Shown piece after piece: positions 14,289-64,000 of a stretch of 64,000 nt of DNA. This stretch comes from Pseudopyrenochaeta lycopersici. Lineage: Eukaryota; Ascomycota; Dothideomycetes; Pleosporales; Pseudopyrenochaetaceae. The notes under the pieces were generated by a model, which saw only the letters and a program-made list of their open reading frames with translations, was not told where the DNA came from and did not search any database. The stretch's first letter is position 1, and each line of letters opens with the position of its first letter. The stretch lies in contig NHZP01000015.1 of the NCBI GenBank assembly GCA_003313425.1, forward strand, positions 186,001 through 250,000. Direction: 5' to 3'. The translations under genes were made by a program, and so were the position numbers.

Positions 14289-17020
14289 CACCAGTTGGAC
14301 GATTGATGTAGAAAGACGAAGTTGGTGGAGCACGAAAACCAGTACGGAATACAACGCTGGATCCTCGCAAAATCACTGTAAAAAAAGGGAGGCACATGTG
14401 AACAGGCACTACGAGCAGACGCAATTTGGGAGCAATACGCTGGAGTAGGAATAGGAGAAATGGTGGAACGGAAGCATAGCATTCCTTGACCCGAGTGTGG
14501 AAGACATTGTTCTTGATCGTACATGAACTATTCCTGATGCGCAATGCTTTGAAGAAGGAACACCCATCCGAAACCTTATATGGTCCTGGCCTCATACACC
14601 CCGCAAATCCCGCCGTCTGGGAGTTAAAGCAAAGACTCGAGGTTGAAGGCCATGCTACTTATATGCTTTATTATTTTTTTGCTGATAATGTACAAAGAAC
14701 CAATATATGTCATTGGAGACGCGATCTTACGTTATTGGAAATGACATGAGTGAATTGAGTGGAGATGAGATGGCGAGGGAATGGTGAGCGTGAAAGTCGG
14801 GTAAATCCGTCGCGAAAGTAACAACGATGTATACGAGGTGTCAAGGCTAGTGTCTTGCGTCTTCACTTGTGATTCGTGCTTGTATCAACGCATACCTGTT
14901 CTCCGCGGCCGCCAAATTCAACATATCCCTACAACGAGGTGTATTTTCTTACACCCTCTAATACACACTGCCATTGATTTGTGCGCGAGGTTGTTTAGGA
15001 ATCTTCACTTTAGCCATCACATCACGACGTACTTTTCCTTTGATAATGTGTCATTCGATAGAATAATCTATGATGAGCGCATCGCGTCTTCCAGTATACT
15101 TCCCACGTCCAATTGATTCAATCAGCGACCTGATTGGAAAAGCAAACATATGGTAGAATCAGGTAAGCGTTGAATCATTTGTAGACTAGTTATGCAGTGC
15201 CATGATCTCAACCAATTTAATGGGGAACCGATGCAACGGACATATCGTCGTGTAGAAGCTGTCAAACCGGAGGGTTCTCCGTCCCATCTTGAGATCAGAC
15301 CACAATGTCGGCACTAAATCCCAGACAGACTCATTGCTCTTCGCACTAGTATGACCTGGAAGCAGCGCGACTCATGTAGTTGCCAACAGCCATAACCTTG
15401 TTGAGGTCTCTAGCTTCTTACATACTGCTTACATGTGCCCAAACCCAAGCACCTGAACGTTCGTAAGTAGTCTGCAGCTTTTGTAAGTGATGGTCAAGGA
15501 TGTGGTACTGCAAGGCGTTCACAGATGCTCGCACGGCTGCTCAGCACGACAATTGTGGTCTGGAAGTACGCTAGAAGACACTTTTAGCGCTCATTCTCCG
15601 CTCCACCCTGAAAACATTAGCCGGCCCTAGAGCAGATCCATCACATGTTTAACAATGGTTACCAAGTACGTAGGAGCGCAACCCGACCAATTTTCGTCCT
15701 CCAAGAGATTGCCCATTCCACCAATCGAATCGAGACGCAGGACCGCGAAAACAATGCCGTGTACAAATCTGACGGGAGCTTCAGCGCATCGCATCGAGGT
15801 ATCCGCAGGGTTTTCCGTACCCTCGTTCTTGACAGCGGACGCCAAGGGATATTGGCGGAGAGGCTAAAGTGAACCTGGGGTACTGTGTGGGATGGTCAGT
15901 GGCGCTAGAGCGACGCCGGCGGCTCGGCGGATGCTCCCCGAGGTACTTCCGATGGGGGGATCGTAGTAATAATAGCCAAGTGGCGCGGGGTGTTTTAAGA
16001 TGAACAGATACTTATTAGCTACATCACGCGCGATAAGTTTGACTCACCACTGCATGGAACAGTGTAGCTTGGAAGGCTCTCAATGCCCCGCTGTAAGATT
16101 TTGTATTCTCTTCGAAATCGTCTTATCGGCAGTCCTTGAGTCTCCTGCCAATGCCGAGGCATTTCAGCCTCACGCGTCGCCAAGTCGCGCCCAAGTGGTG
16201 TGAGCGAACGGCTTGTAGGGTTGAAGAGAACACAAAGCTGCCACGAAGCTTGTGTCGCCAATTGTCGCTTGACATTCCTCGCAGCCCAACATGGAAGCGG
16301 GAATATTACTGTGTCCGTAGCCAAGAGGCTAGAGCGCAACAAGGATTGCGACATCACACATTGTGGCTTAAATAGCGTCGCGTGGCAGACTTGCCATCCG
16401 GGAGTTGAGATGTTTAGCTTACTTCTGCTGGTGGAGAAGTGCAGACACGGTGGACGCCCTGCCACAGCACGTGCGGCCGTGTTGTGCTCTGTATATGCAT
16501 TGTCTCTGTCTTTCCACTTCACATGATAATCTTAAAGTCGGTAGGGGTATCACGAAGCAATATGAGAGGTATACAAGATTGAGACATGTCGTTGAAAATG
16601 GAATGCCGCTACGGGTAGGCCGCCCCTAGCCAGTCTCTTCTAGTTGCCATCCCCGCGCTTACCCCGCAGACGTCAATGGCGCTTGCCGATCCTAGCTCAA
16701 CCACCCCAAGCCAACACCAACGGCGGGCTTGCCAAGTAGCCTTCATGCAACCTTCGCCTTCTCCCTACCTATCACCATGCTGCATTCCGTGTGCCAAACT
16801 TCACTCAAGACTTGCCCAAGTCCGCCGCCAACCGGATAATCCCCGGATTCGCTGCGATAATGCACCGGATATCTTTATGGAGAAGGTGACGGGGGAATTG
16901 TGGGACAAACATGTTGCCTGTGCGCATGCCCCCCGCGTTGTGTGTCCAGAGCAGCAATGGATGGTAGCATCGCTGGAGCTGACGGGGCGGAGAAAGATTC
17001 TGCGATTCAAAATGCGACAC
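14289..17020. other. Long spacer, no supported gene
   Basis: 2.7 kb upstream of the transporter. Several 70-170-codon frames exist on both strands (largest 16019-16522 minus), but their translations look like random GC-balanced sequence, and overlapping frames on opposite strands score equally. Nothing resembling a repeat boundary or RNA gene was found. Confidence 0.4.
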
Positions 17021-19110: not shown

Positions 19111-19633
19111 TCACCAAGGTCTCGCCCAGAAGATATCTGTGCTTGTATCCTCCTCTTCATCCCGAAGCCACAAGTGCAACACATCTCTCCCTTTAAATGC
19201 ACCCTTGGAAATAATGTAATTTCTCCTCTGACTCTTCGCCAACCAACTTGGACGCGTCGCCATAGCCAACGGCCCATGCGTCAGTGTCCCTACCGTCTCA
19301 TTGCTCCCATCCCACACGTGTAATTCTCCGGCATAGCTTAAACTATATCTTCCAATCCGAGCATAGTCGGAATCCGTCAAGTTTCCCTTGTTTGGCACTT
19401 GGTGTTCCGGGTCTGTCGATGCCAGGTTGGCGGACATGTAGCCGTTGGCGTCATATATAAGAAGACCAATTGCATTGTCGCCAATGTTTCTAGGTCCCTT
19501 CAAGGTACCATTTAGATGGGTCCTAGAGATTTTAGAAGGTTGATTGAAAATAGTGGCCTTGTACTAACGAGGTACTATTGATTAGTTGCCACGTTCCAGC
19601 GAGCGCCGCGGCGATGTTTTGTGGAAGGACCAT
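19111..19633 (-). CDS. Lipocalin-like domain protein
   Basis: Exons 19633-19569 and 19522-19111 with a 46-nt intron (GTTAGT..CTAG) give 158 residues. The fold signature is clear: N-terminal LAGTWQLINS, then IGLLIYDANGYMSANLA, IGRYSLSYAGELHVWD and a closing WLRDEEE. Proteins of this Lipocalin_5-like family are small beta-barrels, sometimes found in secondary-metabolite clusters; a cyclase or ligand-binding role has been suggested for some. No biosynthetic genes are adjacent here, so the role is open. No signal peptide; probably cytosolic. It lies 184 bp from, and convergent with, the transporter gene. Confidence 0.82.
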
Positions 19634-20617: not shown

Positions 20618-21430
20618 GATACCCGCGGTTTATCGAGGGTTTGTTCTAAGGTTTGTCAGGTTCTGGATTACGAGTTTCACCTTTTTTACTATAGAAATTG
20701 ACTATGTTTGTAAATACCCCGGGTTGGGTGAGGTGAGTGAATGGTACTGTGGGTAAACGGTTTGCTAGTAGATTTGCCTAGTTCTGGAGCTATTGTTTGT
20801 GCCGCCAAGATAGTTGCTATGGAATTTGGAATTTGTCTGGGGACTATTGTTATTTACGGAGGAGGTTCAATATACTGTTATATATACAAAGAGGAGAACA
20901 GAAGATTGTGCTTCTTGGCGTCGACTCCATGTATGATATTGAACAGTCAGTAACAATGCGATGACAGAGCAACTATTCATACTTTGTACGCAATCTATCA
21001 CACGCGCATAATTGTCATGGCTGTGCTGCAGCCTACTTCGACCATCACCCGCGGGGGCTTGGAAATGGCATACACAGAATGTTCAGAAGCCAAGGGTAAT
21101 GCAGTTTCCCAATAGTACATGAAAAGTCGAGGTTGGAAGGATCGCGACCGATTGTTTAGGGAATTGGCAGCTTTACTTCCGGAGGATGCAATATGTCTAC
21201 GCCACACTAGGCCCGATGAGACAACGCCGCAATCCTTCGCCAAGACGTTTCACCCTCCAGGCAACAATCTCCGAGCACATATATACACGAGTTGTACGTA
21301 GCGAAACTCCTTCGCACGCACTAGTGTCAAGCACTCGGGCCTGCTCAACCTTAAACATCTTTCATCGTACTGTGCGGCACTACGTAGCTAAATCATTCAC
21401 CTTCTACACGACTTTAAACATTCTCTCAGT
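20618..21430. other. Spacer with possible promoter of the downstream membrane-protein gene
   Basis: Contains a TATA-like ATATATACAC at about 21279-21288, roughly 150 bp before the ATG at 21431. Weak hydrophobic frames (for example 20741-20953 plus) have no support. Confidence 0.4.
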
Positions 21431-57504: not shown

Positions 57505-59845
57505 ATGGAAGCTAAAGTCTGGAGTACTCCACTTTGTGGAGCCTGTCAAAGTATCACGTTAGAAATGTTCATGAATGGTTTTGAACATCCACTCCCTTAT
57601 CCACGAATTGTTGAGATGGGAAAGACTTGCATGCTCTGCAGACTGATAGTATGTTCCACCAGCCATCTTCAAACATCAGCGGCGGATCCATATGAAGTCA
57701 ATCGGGACTATCATTATTGGGCATCATGTCTTCCGCAGCTTCCTTACTTGGTCCGGAACCCAGGTTTGGTCCTACAAGAAAATGGCGCTCCGTCCGTCCT
57801 TGAAACAGTGAATTCTCCTCCATGGCGTGTCGTTTGGAAAAGGCAAGTGGCATATTTGCAAAGTTATATAAATGGAGAGTTCAACGACGGCAAAACCATT
57901 CAGATATCAGCCCCTAAAAGTAAGAAGTTAAAACGTTTGTCATTGGTAATCTACTGATTTAGGGAAAACAGGTTCAATATACAAAAGCCACGGCTTTTTT
58001 ATCGAGGATCAAACATCAATCGTCAAGGAATGTGGTTTTAGCTCTCAAGACATTGAAGCGGCTAATTCGTATCGGAACAAATCACTTTTGTATACTTGGC
58101 TTCGTAATTGCATCGAGGAGCACACAGACTGTAAGTGGTCATTTTCTGGTGACAAGTTGGCTCTTGACGAAAACATGGATGAAATCCAACCTCTCCCAAC
58201 CAGAATCATAGAAGTTGGTCGGAATAATGACCATATCAAGTTGGTCGCCACCGCTGGGAAAAGGGGGGCGTACGTTGCTTTGAGTCATCGATGGGGACTT
58301 CGAAAGAATCTTTGCACTCTGGATGAGAACCTACTTCGACACCTTAAAAATATTGAAGTTGGAGGCTTGTCCCAAACCTTCAAAGACGCCATAGAAGTCA
58401 CCCGAGATCTTGGTGCTCAGTATATATGGATAGATTCTCTTTGCATAATCCAGGACAATCCAAATGACTGGGCTACTCAGGCAAATGAAATGGGCAAAAT
58501 TTTCGAGAAAGCATTATGCACCATCGCCGCAGTCGACGCAATCGATGACACTACTGGTATGGATAGAGGGCTATTCATTCCTCGAGAAGAGGATCCTCTT
58601 GCTGTCCGCTTCTGCTGTGCTCCACAAAAAGACCCCGTAAAACCTGACAAATTTCGATCAAAAGCGGGTGAACCATACTGCTGGAAGTATACATACTATC
58701 CAACACTGAAAGAGAATGACTGCGCTGCTAATGAGAATATCCTAAAAGAACATCGATTGGTTGCAAAGCCTAGACTCATCGGACCCCCATGGGATATTAT
58801 GAAATCAAAATGGAGCAGGAGAGGCTGGATACTTCAAGAGCGTATTTTGTCTAGGCGTATAATATATTTCTCTAAAAGTAAAGTCTCCTGGGACTGCCTC
58901 GCCACCTCCGGTGAGGAAGAATCGCTCGGCCTTGAAGCACCACCTCTTCGCGCAACAATGTTCAAGACCGGTATTCAGAATTGGCAGTCACTGACCGGGT
59001 CTTACACAGAGTGCTCGCTCACGTTTGACTCTGACAAGTTGGCTGCTATAGCCGGACTCGCTGAAAGATTGAAAAAAAAAAGCAGGATACCCTATTTTGC
59101 AGGAATTTTCAATGATACTACCAGAAACGGGCTGATGTGGCGATCAGAGTCCAATGATCCCATGACGAGATTGAATTCTTTTCACGCACCCTCATGGACT
59201 TGGGCTGCGTACAAGGGCACTATTTGCTATGACTTGGCGTCAAAAAATGAGATGGTTGAAGCTAACTGTGAGATTTCGAAACCCGAGTTCAACATTACGC
59301 ACAGCTGTTCGAATATGTGTCCGAACCCTTCCCGAAATTGTATTACCGGGAATGTAAAGTGGGTCGGGAGGATCGGCACTGCGGTTCGATCAGACAGTTT
59401 ACGCTCCTTACAGCTTTCTAAGGATGAAGATCTCATCAAAATTCTTGGCTCCAATGTACACTTTGAGCGGAGACCGATAGTGCGAATCGTTGGAGACATA
59501 CCCGAAGATACCCCTCGAAAGTTGAGTATCCCCGATAGGGTCGAAGTAATAAAGAATGAGGGGGGAAGTATTATTGGCTGGGTACTCTTGGATACAGATA
59601 TTCCCAAAACTGTCGAAACGCCAATATTTTTGGCCGTGCTTAAGTGTTGGCGGAGAGCGGCCCCACTGCCGGCTTTTCTGGGCTTAATCAAGGGCTTTGA
59701 TTATATGATCGAAGAGAACTTCGACGTTCTCGCATTGTTAAAACGCGACGAAAAACCCTGGACCTATGAACGAGTTGGGGTGGGCAGGGTCGTCGATAAG
59801 AGCTGGATACAATGTTGCGCCATGAAGACTATCGAAGTCTGGTAG
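57505..59845 (+). CDS. HET-domain protein (second copy in window, divergent from the first)
   Basis: Exons 57505-57919 and 57963-59845, 43-nt intron, 765 residues. N-terminal Cys motifs CGAC and CMLC precede the HET domain: YVALSHRWG (about 242-250), YIWIDSLCIIQDNPNDW (about 292-308) and RRGWILQERILSRR (about 424-437). HAPSWTWAAYKG marks the usual segment behind the domain. The C-terminal part (about 560-765) is not recognised. Similarity to the other HET protein is limited to the HET blocks, so they are not recent duplicates. HET proteins execute or transmit incompatibility cell death; it lies 700 bp from the HeLo/NLR pair, but no functional link can be claimed. Confidence 0.93.
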
Positions 59846-60547: not shown

Positions 60548-61351
60548 TTAAACAGCTGAACTGGCTTTTCCAAACGTGAAACCTGACATTGTACCGGAGT
60601 TGTGGCCAATCTGTAGGCCAGTATTATGGCTGCCTGAGAAGACAATGTGGTGAGACTTCGCGGCAGCCTCCGTCTGCTTTGCAATCGCCTGCTCTAGTAG
60701 CTTATCCTGCACTGCGGCAATCTCTCTTAACATTGAGATTCCTTCACCTGGCCCAATAGCGGATACTTCGATGTCGCAGAGGTCTCGTTGAGACTGCTGT
60801 GTGGCTGGGAAGAGCTCCACCAAGCCATCGACCAACTCTGTGATATCCTCAATCAGTCGTCGAAACTGCTTCTCCTGGTAAACTGCCCACTGTGCCTTTT
60901 GGCGTACGCTGGACCGATTCTGGCGGTCGATTGCCAGCTGGCGCATTTTGTCGTGAAGCCTCGCCGTAGCCGGATCTAGATCTGTTTGCGGATTGTATAC
61001 CAGAAGACTGCTCGCCTGAGGTTCTGTCCTGCTCTTGTATTTGTTCGATACGCCTTCAGCTTCGGCGAACAATTCTACAATCTGACCAAGCAAGGCTTCA
61101 GCATGTTTGACGGTCGATTCTGGCCTAAAACGATCCTGAAGCGACACCAGATCTTGGACATCACCATTTAGATCCAATGACTTGCCCCACCGCGATAAGC
61201 GAAGTCTTGCGTTGTCCAATTTGAGCTGGCTTGTTTGGAAGCTCTTTCCGAATGTACGACCGAGTTGGACGAATTCGAAGCACTCGACGGTGTTGTTGAA
61301 GAGGCCAGCAAGGGCGACGACGCCAACAACAAGACTAGCTGGCTCTGCCAT
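60548..61351 (-). CDS. HeLo-domain cell-death effector with C-terminal amyloid-type motif
   Basis: 267 residues, intronless. The N-terminus (MAEPASLVVGVVALAGLFNN, then VECFEFVQLGRTFG and a KLDNARLRLSRWG helix) matches the HeLo domain of HET-S-type proteins, an alpha-helical membrane-perforating module whose first helix inserts in the plasma membrane. Residues about 205-233 are a linker helix. Residues 235-258 form a G/N/Q motif, F-S-G-x-x-N-x-G-x-Q-x-G-x-N-S-G, of the kind described as the sigma amyloid motif. The neighbouring divergent NLR carries the same pattern at its N-terminus. I infer that the NLR motif templates this one into a beta-solenoid or amyloid, activating HeLo and killing the cell. 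Confidence 0.88.
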   Translation of the reverse strand: MAEPASLVVGVVALAGLFNNTVECFEFVQLGRTFGKSFQTSQLKLDNARLRLSRWGKSLDLNGDVQDLVSLQDRFRPESTVKHAEALLGQIVELFAEAEGVSNKYKSRTEPQASSLLVYNPQTDLDPATARLHDKMRQLAIDRQNRSSVRQKAQWAVYQEKQFRRLIEDITELVDGLVELFPATQQSQRDLCDIEVSAIGPGEGISMLREIAAVQDKLLEQAIAKQTEAAAKSHHIVFSGSHNTGLQIGHNSGTMSGFTFGKASSAV

Positions 61352-61678
61352 GGAGACTCACTGATGTAGAATACTTTGGTAGAAGTTAAAAAGGGCACAA
61401 AAGGATAGATCTCAAAAATTGTCCAATTCTTATCTGGGCGCGTCTCTGGCGTGGAGTGTGAGGCTGGCGGTAGCAACAGGGACAAGGGCAAGCCAGTGTG
61501 CTTATGTGCAGCTACGCGATGGCAGCATCTTGACAGTAGGATACATCAGCAGCCCAGCCGAAGCGCCAGCCCAGTCTTGTCAGCCCCAACGTCGACAGCC
61601 CAGCCTTATGCGCAAGAGCACCCATCTCTGCGCCAGGCCCGCGACCATGCAAGATCATCGGCCGCGTTGTACAATACA
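61352..61678. promoter_or_regulatory. Shared divergent promoter of the HeLo and NLR genes
   Basis: 327 bp between the two ATGs, which suggests coordinated expression. No TATA box on either strand. The NLR frame stays open upstream of its ATG to about 61451 (Ser/Pro/Gln-rich), but has no ATG there and no domain, so it is read as 5' UTR. Confidence 0.5.
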
Positions 61679-64000
61679 ATGGATCATCCTGGCATTACGA
61701 CTACGTTCGCAGGCCCGGGAAATCAGGGGGTGCAGGTAGGATACAACTCGGGCTCCATTTACGTCGGTGCACTTGGCAAGTCCCCGCTTCCGCCTAGACC
61801 ACTGCTGTGCTAACTGCGCTCTGTCCCCGTAGAACGTCCAGAGACTCCACCGCAGCCTGGGTGTTTCGTCCCGCTCCGTCGCGACCCAGACTTTGTCGAC
61901 CGCGCAACGCTGCTCGATCAGATACGCGAACAATGCGCGGCGCCAGCTTCTCGAGTAGCGCTGGTGGGCCTCAATGGTGTGGGGTACGTCCAGCGGAAGC
62001 ACCCTCGGGCCGGGTCTTGCGACTCGTATCTGACGCAGGCACAGGAAGTCGCAGCTGGCCATCGAGCACTGCTACCGCACCGTTGAGCTGTCGCCGCAGA
62101 CGTGGGTGTTGTGGGCGCACGCTAGTAACACGGCTCGGCTCGAGCAAAGCTTCCGCGACATAGCAGACCTGCTTACGCTTCGGGGCCGCAAGGACCTACA
62201 AGCGGATGTGTTCAAGCTAGTTCACGACTGGCTCCGCAACCAGCAGAACGGACCATGGCTCTTGGTCCTCGACAACGCCGACGATGCTGCTGTTCTCTCG
62301 CCGGCAGGCCACGAAGGTGGCAACGGCGGCAACAACGGCACCGGCGCTCTACGGCAACACCTGTCGAGGTATGTGCCGTCGAGCAGACACGGCTCGGTTT
62401 TGGTAACTAGCCGTACAAAGCGTGCGGCGATGCAGATCGTGGAAGAGGGCGATATCATACCTGTCGAGCCGATGCACGATGCGGCTGCACACGCTCTCCT
62501 CCGCAAAAAGCTGGGAGGCAAGGGAGACTCGGGCGACAGCGATGATGGCATTGTCAAGCTAGCGAGGGCACTGGACCATATGCCGCTCGCTCTTGTACAG
62601 GCGGCGGCCTATATTCGGGAACGAGCACCAAGATGCTCTGTGCAGCAGTATCTAGCCGAGTACTACCAGAGCGACACCAGAAAGACGAGTTTGCTGAACC
62701 AAGCGGCAGGCCATCTTCGCCGAGACGAAGCGGCCAGTAACTCTATTCTCATAACTTGGCAGATATCATTCGATCACATACGGAGCACTCGAAGATCAGC
62801 AGCAGATCTGCTATCGCTAATGAGCTTCTTTGACCGACAGGGAATTCACGAAAGTCTCCTCCACAGCCAGAGCTGCACGGCTGATAGGCACGTGGCAACT
62901 GTGAATGTCGACGATGGTTTTGAGGAGGATGTGCTTACGCTGCGAGACTACTCCTTCATCACAGTCTCTAACGATGCGAACATATTTGAGATGCACAGCT
63001 TGGTACAACTAGCTACACGCAAATGGCTAGAAAGCGAAGGCCGAGTTGACCGGTGGAGGAAGCAGTTTATCTCCAACCTTTGCACAGAGCTGCCTACAGG
63101 AGAACACGAGAATTGGGGGAAATGCCGGGCACTGTTCCCACACGCACAGGCGGCCTTAGCGCAGCCGCCAAGGGACAAGGAATCTCGCAAGGAGTGGGCT
63201 CGAGTACTGTACAATGCAGCATGGTACGCGTGGCAAAGCGGAAAAGCAGGCGAGGCAGAGCACATGTCGACGATATCCATGGAAGTCAGGACAGAAGTGT
63301 TGGGCGAAGAGCATGTAGAGACTTTGAACAGCATGGGGATGGTAGGCGTTGCGAAGGATATGGGAGGCAAGTATGACGAGGCGGAGTCGATGAACAGACA
63401 GACGCTGGCGCGGTCTAAGAAGGTGCTTGGGCATGACCATCCAGACACGCTAACAAGTATGAGCAACTTAGCACTAGTGCTAAAAAGGCAGGGCAAGTAC
63501 GAAGAGGCGGAGTCGATGAACAGACAGACGCTGATGCGGCGAGAGAAGGTGCTGGGGCATGACCATCCAAACGCGCTGATAAGCATGAACAACTTAGCAG
63601 TAGTGTTGGAGAAGCAGGGCAAGTACGAAGAGGCGGAGTCGATGAACAGACAGGCGCTGGCGCGGTCTAAGAAGGTGCTTGGGCATGACCATCCAGACAC
63701 GCTAACAAGTATGAGCAACTTAGCACTAGTGTTGGAGAAGCAGGGCAAGTACGAAGAGGCGGAGTCGATGAACAGACAGACGCTGATGCGGCGAAAGAAG
63801 TTGCTGGGGCATGACCATCCTGACACGCTGATGAGCATGAGCAACTTAGCACTAGTGCTGGAGAGGCAGGGCAAGTACGAAGAGGCGGAGTCGATGAACA
63901 GACAGACGCTGATACAGCGAGAGAAGTTGCTTGGGCATGACCATTCAGACACGTTAATAAGTATGAGCAATTTAGCAGTAGTGTTGGAGAAGCAGGGCAA
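61679..64000 (+). CDS. NLR: amyloid-type motif, NB-ARC, TPR repeats (3' end outside window)
   Basis: Exons 61679-61775, 61833-61983 and 62045 to window end (734 codons so far, no stop). Residues 10-28 hold FAGPGNQGVQVGYNSGSIY, parallel to the HeLo protein's C-terminus. The first intron is GC-AG (GCAAGT donor, GTGCTAAC branch); the second is GTACGT..CACAG. The NB-ARC has P-loop GLNGVGKS (78-85), Walker B WLLVLDNADD (about 154-163), TSRTKR and a GLPL-like MPLALVQAAAYI, then a winged-helix MHSLVQLATRKWL. From about residue 505, TPRs of kinesin-light-chain type follow, each 42 residues (GKYEEAESMNRQ..LGHDHPDTL). Such proteins are STAND sensors that oligomerise when the repeats bind a ligand. Confidence 0.92.
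63381..64000 (+). repeat. 126-bp in-frame tandem repeats encoding TPRs
   Basis: The word GCGGAGTCGATGAACAGACA recurs at 63381, 63507, 63633, 63759 and 63885, exactly 126 nt apart. Units differ at few positions (for example GCGCGGTCTAAG against ATGCGGCGAGAG), with alternating sub-types. The array continues beyond the window. Confidence 0.95.

Follow-up and report, generated by a model that had tools for sequence, protein, structure and literature searches.

A probable PP-type amyloid signalosome built from a HeLo effector and a TPR receptor in Pseudopyrenochaeta lycopersici

The stretch of Pseudopyrenochaeta lycopersici DNA analyzed in this study (64,000 nucleotides of contig NHZP01000015.1, referred to below as the window) ends with two divergently transcribed genes, encoding a HeLo-domain protein and a NOD-like receptor (NLR), which very likely constitute a two-gene amyloid NLR signalosome of the PP type. 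One pattern, F-x-G-x-x-N-x-G-x-Q-x-G-x-N-S-G, is found at the C-terminus of the HeLo protein (F238-G253) and at the N-terminus of the NLR (F10-G25). The positions of both genes, their head-to-head arrangement and the position-by-position agreement of the motifs had been proposed in an original prediction made from the DNA letters, and all were borne out. As also proposed there, the sensor part of the receptor lies partly beyond the window, and the view of the pair as a complete effector and NLR module with a shared amyloid-type motif is supported when the contig sequence beyond the window is included, with which the predicted NLR reaches 1028 aa. The features of the locus are as follows.

60548..61351, minus strand: HeLo-PP effector gene, 267 aa, one open frame (Pfam HeLo, 5.5e-55)
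60755..61333, minus strand: HeLo domain of the HET-S type, aa 7-199
60581..60655, minus strand: PP (Ses_B) motif at the HeLo protein C-terminus, aa 233-257 (Pfam Ses_B, 37.7 bits)
61352..61678: divergent spacer between the two start codons, 327 bp
61679..61775, plus strand: NLR exon 1, 97 bp, with a counterpart in both paralogues of the second cluster (C96, see below)
61685..61762, plus strand: PP (Ses_B) motif at the NLR N-terminus, aa 3-28 (Pfam Ses_B, 31.5 bits)
61776..61832, plus strand: NLR intron 1, GC-AG, donor GCAAGT
61833..61983, plus strand: NLR exon 2, first part of the STAND NTPase, as far as the P-loop
61984..62044, plus strand: NLR intron 2, GT-AG, interrupting the P-loop between GVG and KS
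62045..64000, plus strand: NLR exon 3, with NTPase, DUF7779 and tetratricopeptide repeats (TPRs), running past the window to the equivalent of 64880 (stop codon to 64883)
63366..64000, plus strand: TPR array, continuing to the equivalent of 64713, with a 126-bp unit in 10.7 copies and 89% matches

The 18-residue HeLo and NLR motifs have 9 identical residues, a number reached in one of 100,000 shuffles of the NLR motif, and outside the motif register the best pair of 18-residue windows from the two proteins has 7. At both protein ends the Pfam Ses_B model (PF17046) scores above its curated cut-off of 23.2 bits. A six-frame search of the whole 62.7-Mb genome yielded eight Ses_B matches at E up to 10, of which five exceed the cut-off (the sixth has 14.9 bits), and these five are the C-termini of two HeLo proteins and the N-termini of three NLRs, in two clusters, that of the window (C15) and C96. 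The motif is short, and it could in principle be shared by chance, or the pair could be a by-product of the clustering of unrelated genes; but this genome distribution, with all five matches at the ends of HeLo or NLR genes, speaks strongly against such an explanation, as does the recurrence of the association in other species described below, and we regard its probability as negligible.

As judged from the profile matches, the shared motif is PP (Pfam Ses_B), rather than HET-s/HRAM or sigma. A test set is named 'PP (Pfam Ses_B)' in an amyloid-motif grammar paper (PMC8086366), and the PP core is given as NxGxQxGxN (PMC9815663). The central G-phi-Q-phi-G core, as in the RIP homotypic interaction motif (RHIM), is likewise present. 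The HRAM identity was rejected, with no match to PF11558 at E 0.1 in the HeLo protein or the NLR front and one PP motif in place of two repeats, although PF11558 is an insensitive model that also misses an HRAM-like pair elsewhere in this genome (C5, see below). The sigma identity was rejected as well, PF17106 (NACHT_sigma) having no match at E 0.1 in either sequence. Genome-wide, PF17106 gave 15 matches below its cut-off and none above it, and the PF11558 search was empty but uninformative, being empty in control genomes too. For the two proteins, the search with amyloid-motif models that had been suggested as a check is positive for PP alone, and the HET-S/NWD2 and sigma pairs initially taken as models are appropriate for the sharing of a motif between effector and NLR but not for its class.

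The NLR start codon at 61679 is the first ATG of its open frame, and the exon-intron structure of the gene is a prediction. Two findings make the GC donor of intron 1 credible: each C96 paralogue has a donor at the corresponding position (GCAAGT in one, GTAAGT in the other), and several homologous proteins continue across the junction without a break. In the NLR protein the P-loop is visible, DUF7779 is above its Pfam cut-off, and about 11 TPRs are present. The single-strand fold of the spacer DNA is not unusual (z 0.90).

By its sequence and predicted structure, the effector belongs with the HeLo/MLKL class of cell-death domains. Pfam (PF14479), matches to HET-s and HET-S chains in PDB (E down to 2.8e-36) and the structure model, which has the HET-S fold, all point to a HeLo domain of the HET-S type, and a hydrophobic N-terminal stretch spans aa 7-25. 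MLKL was not among the rows listed for the effector by Foldseek and VIA-align, an absence that is uninformative. An NLR-independent role in allorecognition, with the HeLo protein acting as a HET-s-like prion, would be in line with the suggested origin of HET-s/HET-S incompatibility from an NLR effector and with the variability of position 33, reported to be decisive for activity (PMC5485727), among 51 aligned sequences (T in 21, A in 11, S in 8, N in 7, and four other residues once each). However, none of the 51 has proline at this position, as in the HET-s chain 2wvn, the ratio of nonsynonymous to synonymous substitution rates (dN/dS) is low in the HeLo domain, and the frame of the linked NLR is intact. 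We consider this role very improbable.

The HeLo protein has 337 homologues at E 0.001, and the domain and motif counts refer to the 120 that were listed. Both HeLo and Ses_B are found in 110 of them (precomputed domains, counted by eye), and GxQxG near the C-terminus is retained in 108; the other 12 include two broken gene models and ten proteins with changes in that stretch. The best named relatives among the matches listed are from the Pleosporales (Clathrospora elynae and Paraphoma chrysanthemicola). For the NLR front (residues 1-130) there are 417 matches, 120 of them listed, with GxQxG within the first 60 residues in 77; the remaining 43 are variants, have another front or come from partial models. 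The co-occurrence of the two genes in related genomes, another suggested check, is partly confirmed: 14 of the 34 listed HeLo homologues with an organism name share a contig with a listed NLR (matched by organism and contig), and three of these contigs are shorter than 70 kb (19,857, 66,664 and 68,160 bases), but adjacency is established only for Puttea exsequens (tags 002716 and 002717), a lecanoromycete outside the Dothideomycetes. In addition, a 421-aa metagenome protein (P0053) on a 1,450-bp contig combines HeLo, Ses_B and TPRs, and is either a fusion or a gene-model artefact.

Several points weigh against the interpretation of the pair as an amyloid signalosome. The evidence consists of sequence and models. 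The NLR NTPase is below the Pfam cut-offs (NACHT, 22.1 of 26.7 bits; NB-ARC, 17.9 of 23.5 bits). In the effector model the predicted local distance difference test (pLDDT) is only 62-65 across the motif, and four of the five models are worse overall. A profile of 18 motifs, one row of which was mistyped at its ends, had no match at E 10 among the solved structures in PDB, RHIM included. For megabase contigs, a shared contig does not equal adjacency. Finally, no co-variation of the motifs was detected in 13 HeLo/NLR pairs: identity within own pairs (10.62 of 18) is no higher than across pairs (10.72; permutation p 0.79), and BLOSUM scoring is likewise negative (p 0.73), in a test that has little power, the HeLo side being almost invariant.

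The 13 pairs represent 11 of the 14 named contigs and the two own loci. The contigs of A. burnsii and A. alternata, where the HeLo gene models are broken in the motif, Ophiobolus contig 98476, where the NLR model has no N-terminus, and the second C96 receptor (NLR-B) were excluded. The HeLo motif of the window is better matched by nine of the 12 other receptors than by its own. At position -6, all 13 effector motifs have S, and the receptor motifs A, T or S. Position -1 is T or S in 12 of the 13 effectors and mostly Q (8 of 13) in the receptors, +9 is T in 12 effectors and S in 7 receptors, and +10 is M in 11 effectors and I or V in 12 receptors. Therefore, the differences in variable residues between the two motifs, pointed out originally, are present but largely side-specific and common across species, and the description of the pair as cognate found no support, the lack of co-variation being the outcome that the original prediction itself had named as counting against it. 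The missing co-variation does not speak against templating, because the PP regions of Podospora HELLP and Chaetomium CgHELLP cross-seed at 36% identity (PMC7885112).

A non-amyloid homotypic docking tag, by which receptor and effector would bind without fibrils and activation would proceed by ordinary recruitment, would agree with the low model confidence over the motif. On the other hand, the G/N/Q pattern is that of PP, HELLP(214-271), which in addition yields fibrils in vitro, and PNT1(1-31) behave as prions in Podospora, and full-length HELLP kills when triggered by PP prions (PMC7885112). We thus consider a docking tag improbable, and suggest that the receptor probably switches on the HeLo killer by prion-like templating, each dynamic step of this scheme being modelled on studied relatives and added to the gene structure, domains, shared motif, recurrence and effector-model fold described above. 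A ligand would bind the TPR array of the NLR, and the NTPase would then oligomerise the receptor. The clustered N-terminal PP motifs could nucleate a cross-beta stack, on which the C-terminal PP motif of the effector would be templated. In turn, the effector's HeLo domain would expose its hydrophobic N-terminal helix and permeabilise the membrane, leading to cell death.

The second PP cluster, C96, contains NLR-A on the minus strand, a HeLo gene on the plus strand (start at 21277) and NLR-B on the plus strand, so that the receptors lie in inverted arms; comparison of the two clusters revealed no second NLR beside the window pair. The C96 receptor fronts have diverged (79% protein identity in the NTPase region, dN 0.12, dS 0.63; DNA identity 0.66-0.87 in 150-column windows), whereas the arms are 100% identical over a tract of 2,695 bp that begins close to the TPR start and takes in about 1.65 kb of 3' flank. 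This tract has a sharp edge at 19311/24019 and ends at 16617/26713 (whole span C96:16617-26713). The edge is in register, as expected after gene conversion, and slightly upstream of it the frame of NLR-A is broken by a short indel. Judged by indices of repeat-induced point mutation (RIP), the C96 coding parts look unaffected. The shared 3' flank has TA/AT of 1.12 and (CA+TG)/(AC+GT) of 0.99, values that pass the usual thresholds for RIP-like sequence, and it may have been mutated before copying or may merely be AT-rich.

A possible protein-level counterpart of this arm sharing is provided by two receptors on the 68,160-base contig of Alternaria alternata. They agree in all of the last 272 aligned residues, and their fronts form a mosaic, with 45 of 59 identities in the first block, 58 of 60 in the second and 30 of 47 ahead of the identical part. 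Two receptors on the 19,857-base contig of Alternaria burnsii have no such identity. An assembly artefact may be the source of the identical tracts in both C96 and A. alternata. Repeat exchange between paralogous NLRs has been described for HNWD genes (PMC1805685) and suggested for TPR receptors (PMC4986451). The inverted identical arms of TPRs plus flank around the HeLo gene lead us to a speculative and rather unlikely proposal that one HeLo killer is served by two PP receptors with interchangeable sensor arms, conversion or inversion of the middle part moving the TPR arrays while the signalling fronts stay distinct. An NLR/HeLo/NLR palindrome was not found described in the literature searched, most subscription papers being outside that search.

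Other loci of the genome contain related genes. At C5:1514000-1523999, a HeLo gene is divergent from an NLR of NACHT/WD40 appearance; as judged by eye, the HeLo protein has two HRAM-like repeats and the NLR one similar repeat near its N-terminus. The locus appears to be a HET-S/NWD2-like pair missed by PF11558. Six further loci have a variant front motif, which in five reads G-F/L-Q-A-G-x-I-N-G just ahead of the NLR NTPase start, the sixth looking degenerate. A search with one variant peptide matched only those six places and no effector C-terminus. The variant may belong to the published NLR39 class. At C3:111100-113600, two NLR fronts of the same family in head-to-head orientation are separated by about 470 bp, and one of them contains an internal stop. 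In the window itself, a HET-domain gene (PF06985, 1.3e-27; 58088-59845) adjoins the HeLo gene, and nothing ties it to the module.

The nearest studied systems are HELLP/PNT1. The Podospora anserina cluster (PMC7885112) is likewise a two-gene system, with a C-terminal PP on the effector and an N-terminal PP on an NB-ARC/TPR NLR, but HELLP has a HeLo-like (HELL) domain, in contrast to the HET-S-type HeLo domain found here. The HELLP/SBP/PNT1 system of Chaetomium globosum also shares PP between a cell-death effector and a TPR NLR; in contrast, no PP-bearing lipase was found in the P. lycopersici genome, the above-cut-off Ses_B matches all being HeLo or NLR ends. HET-S/NWD2 of P. anserina resembles the pair in the HeLo fold and in one motif common to effector and neighbouring NLR, but has two HRAM repeats and a NACHT/WD partner, where the present pair has a single PP motif and a TPR receptor. 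RHIM of mammalian RIP1/RIP3, which partially cross-seeds with Podospora PP (PMC7885112), shares the G-phi-Q-phi-G core but is carried by other host proteins, and a sequence-profile link to RHIM structures was not found. As in the concerted evolution of Podospora HNWD genes (PMC1805685), repeat units would be exchanged between paralogous NLRs, but the tract shared in C96 comprises both TPRs and 3' flank and lies in inverted arms that enclose an effector gene.

Single-copy sigma and PP motifs are mentioned in a survey of HeLo-related proteins (PMC4518210), and in a later survey the main PP motif is counted in 296 receptors and 106 effectors (PMC9815663). Since the HeLo-PP combination and PP receptors and effectors have thus been surveyed already, the pair is a new example of a known fungal system. 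A PP (RHIM-like) motif on a HET-S-type HeLo protein with a TPR receptor is common among the homologues listed, and in the literature found this combination is without an experimental test, the functional PP work found there (PMC7885112) having used HeLo-like effectors. The presence of two PP loci in one genome, whose motifs would be expected from their sequences to cross-seed, provides a natural setting for insulation versus cross-talk of PP pairs, and the palindromic C96 locus could show how sensor arrays are exchanged.
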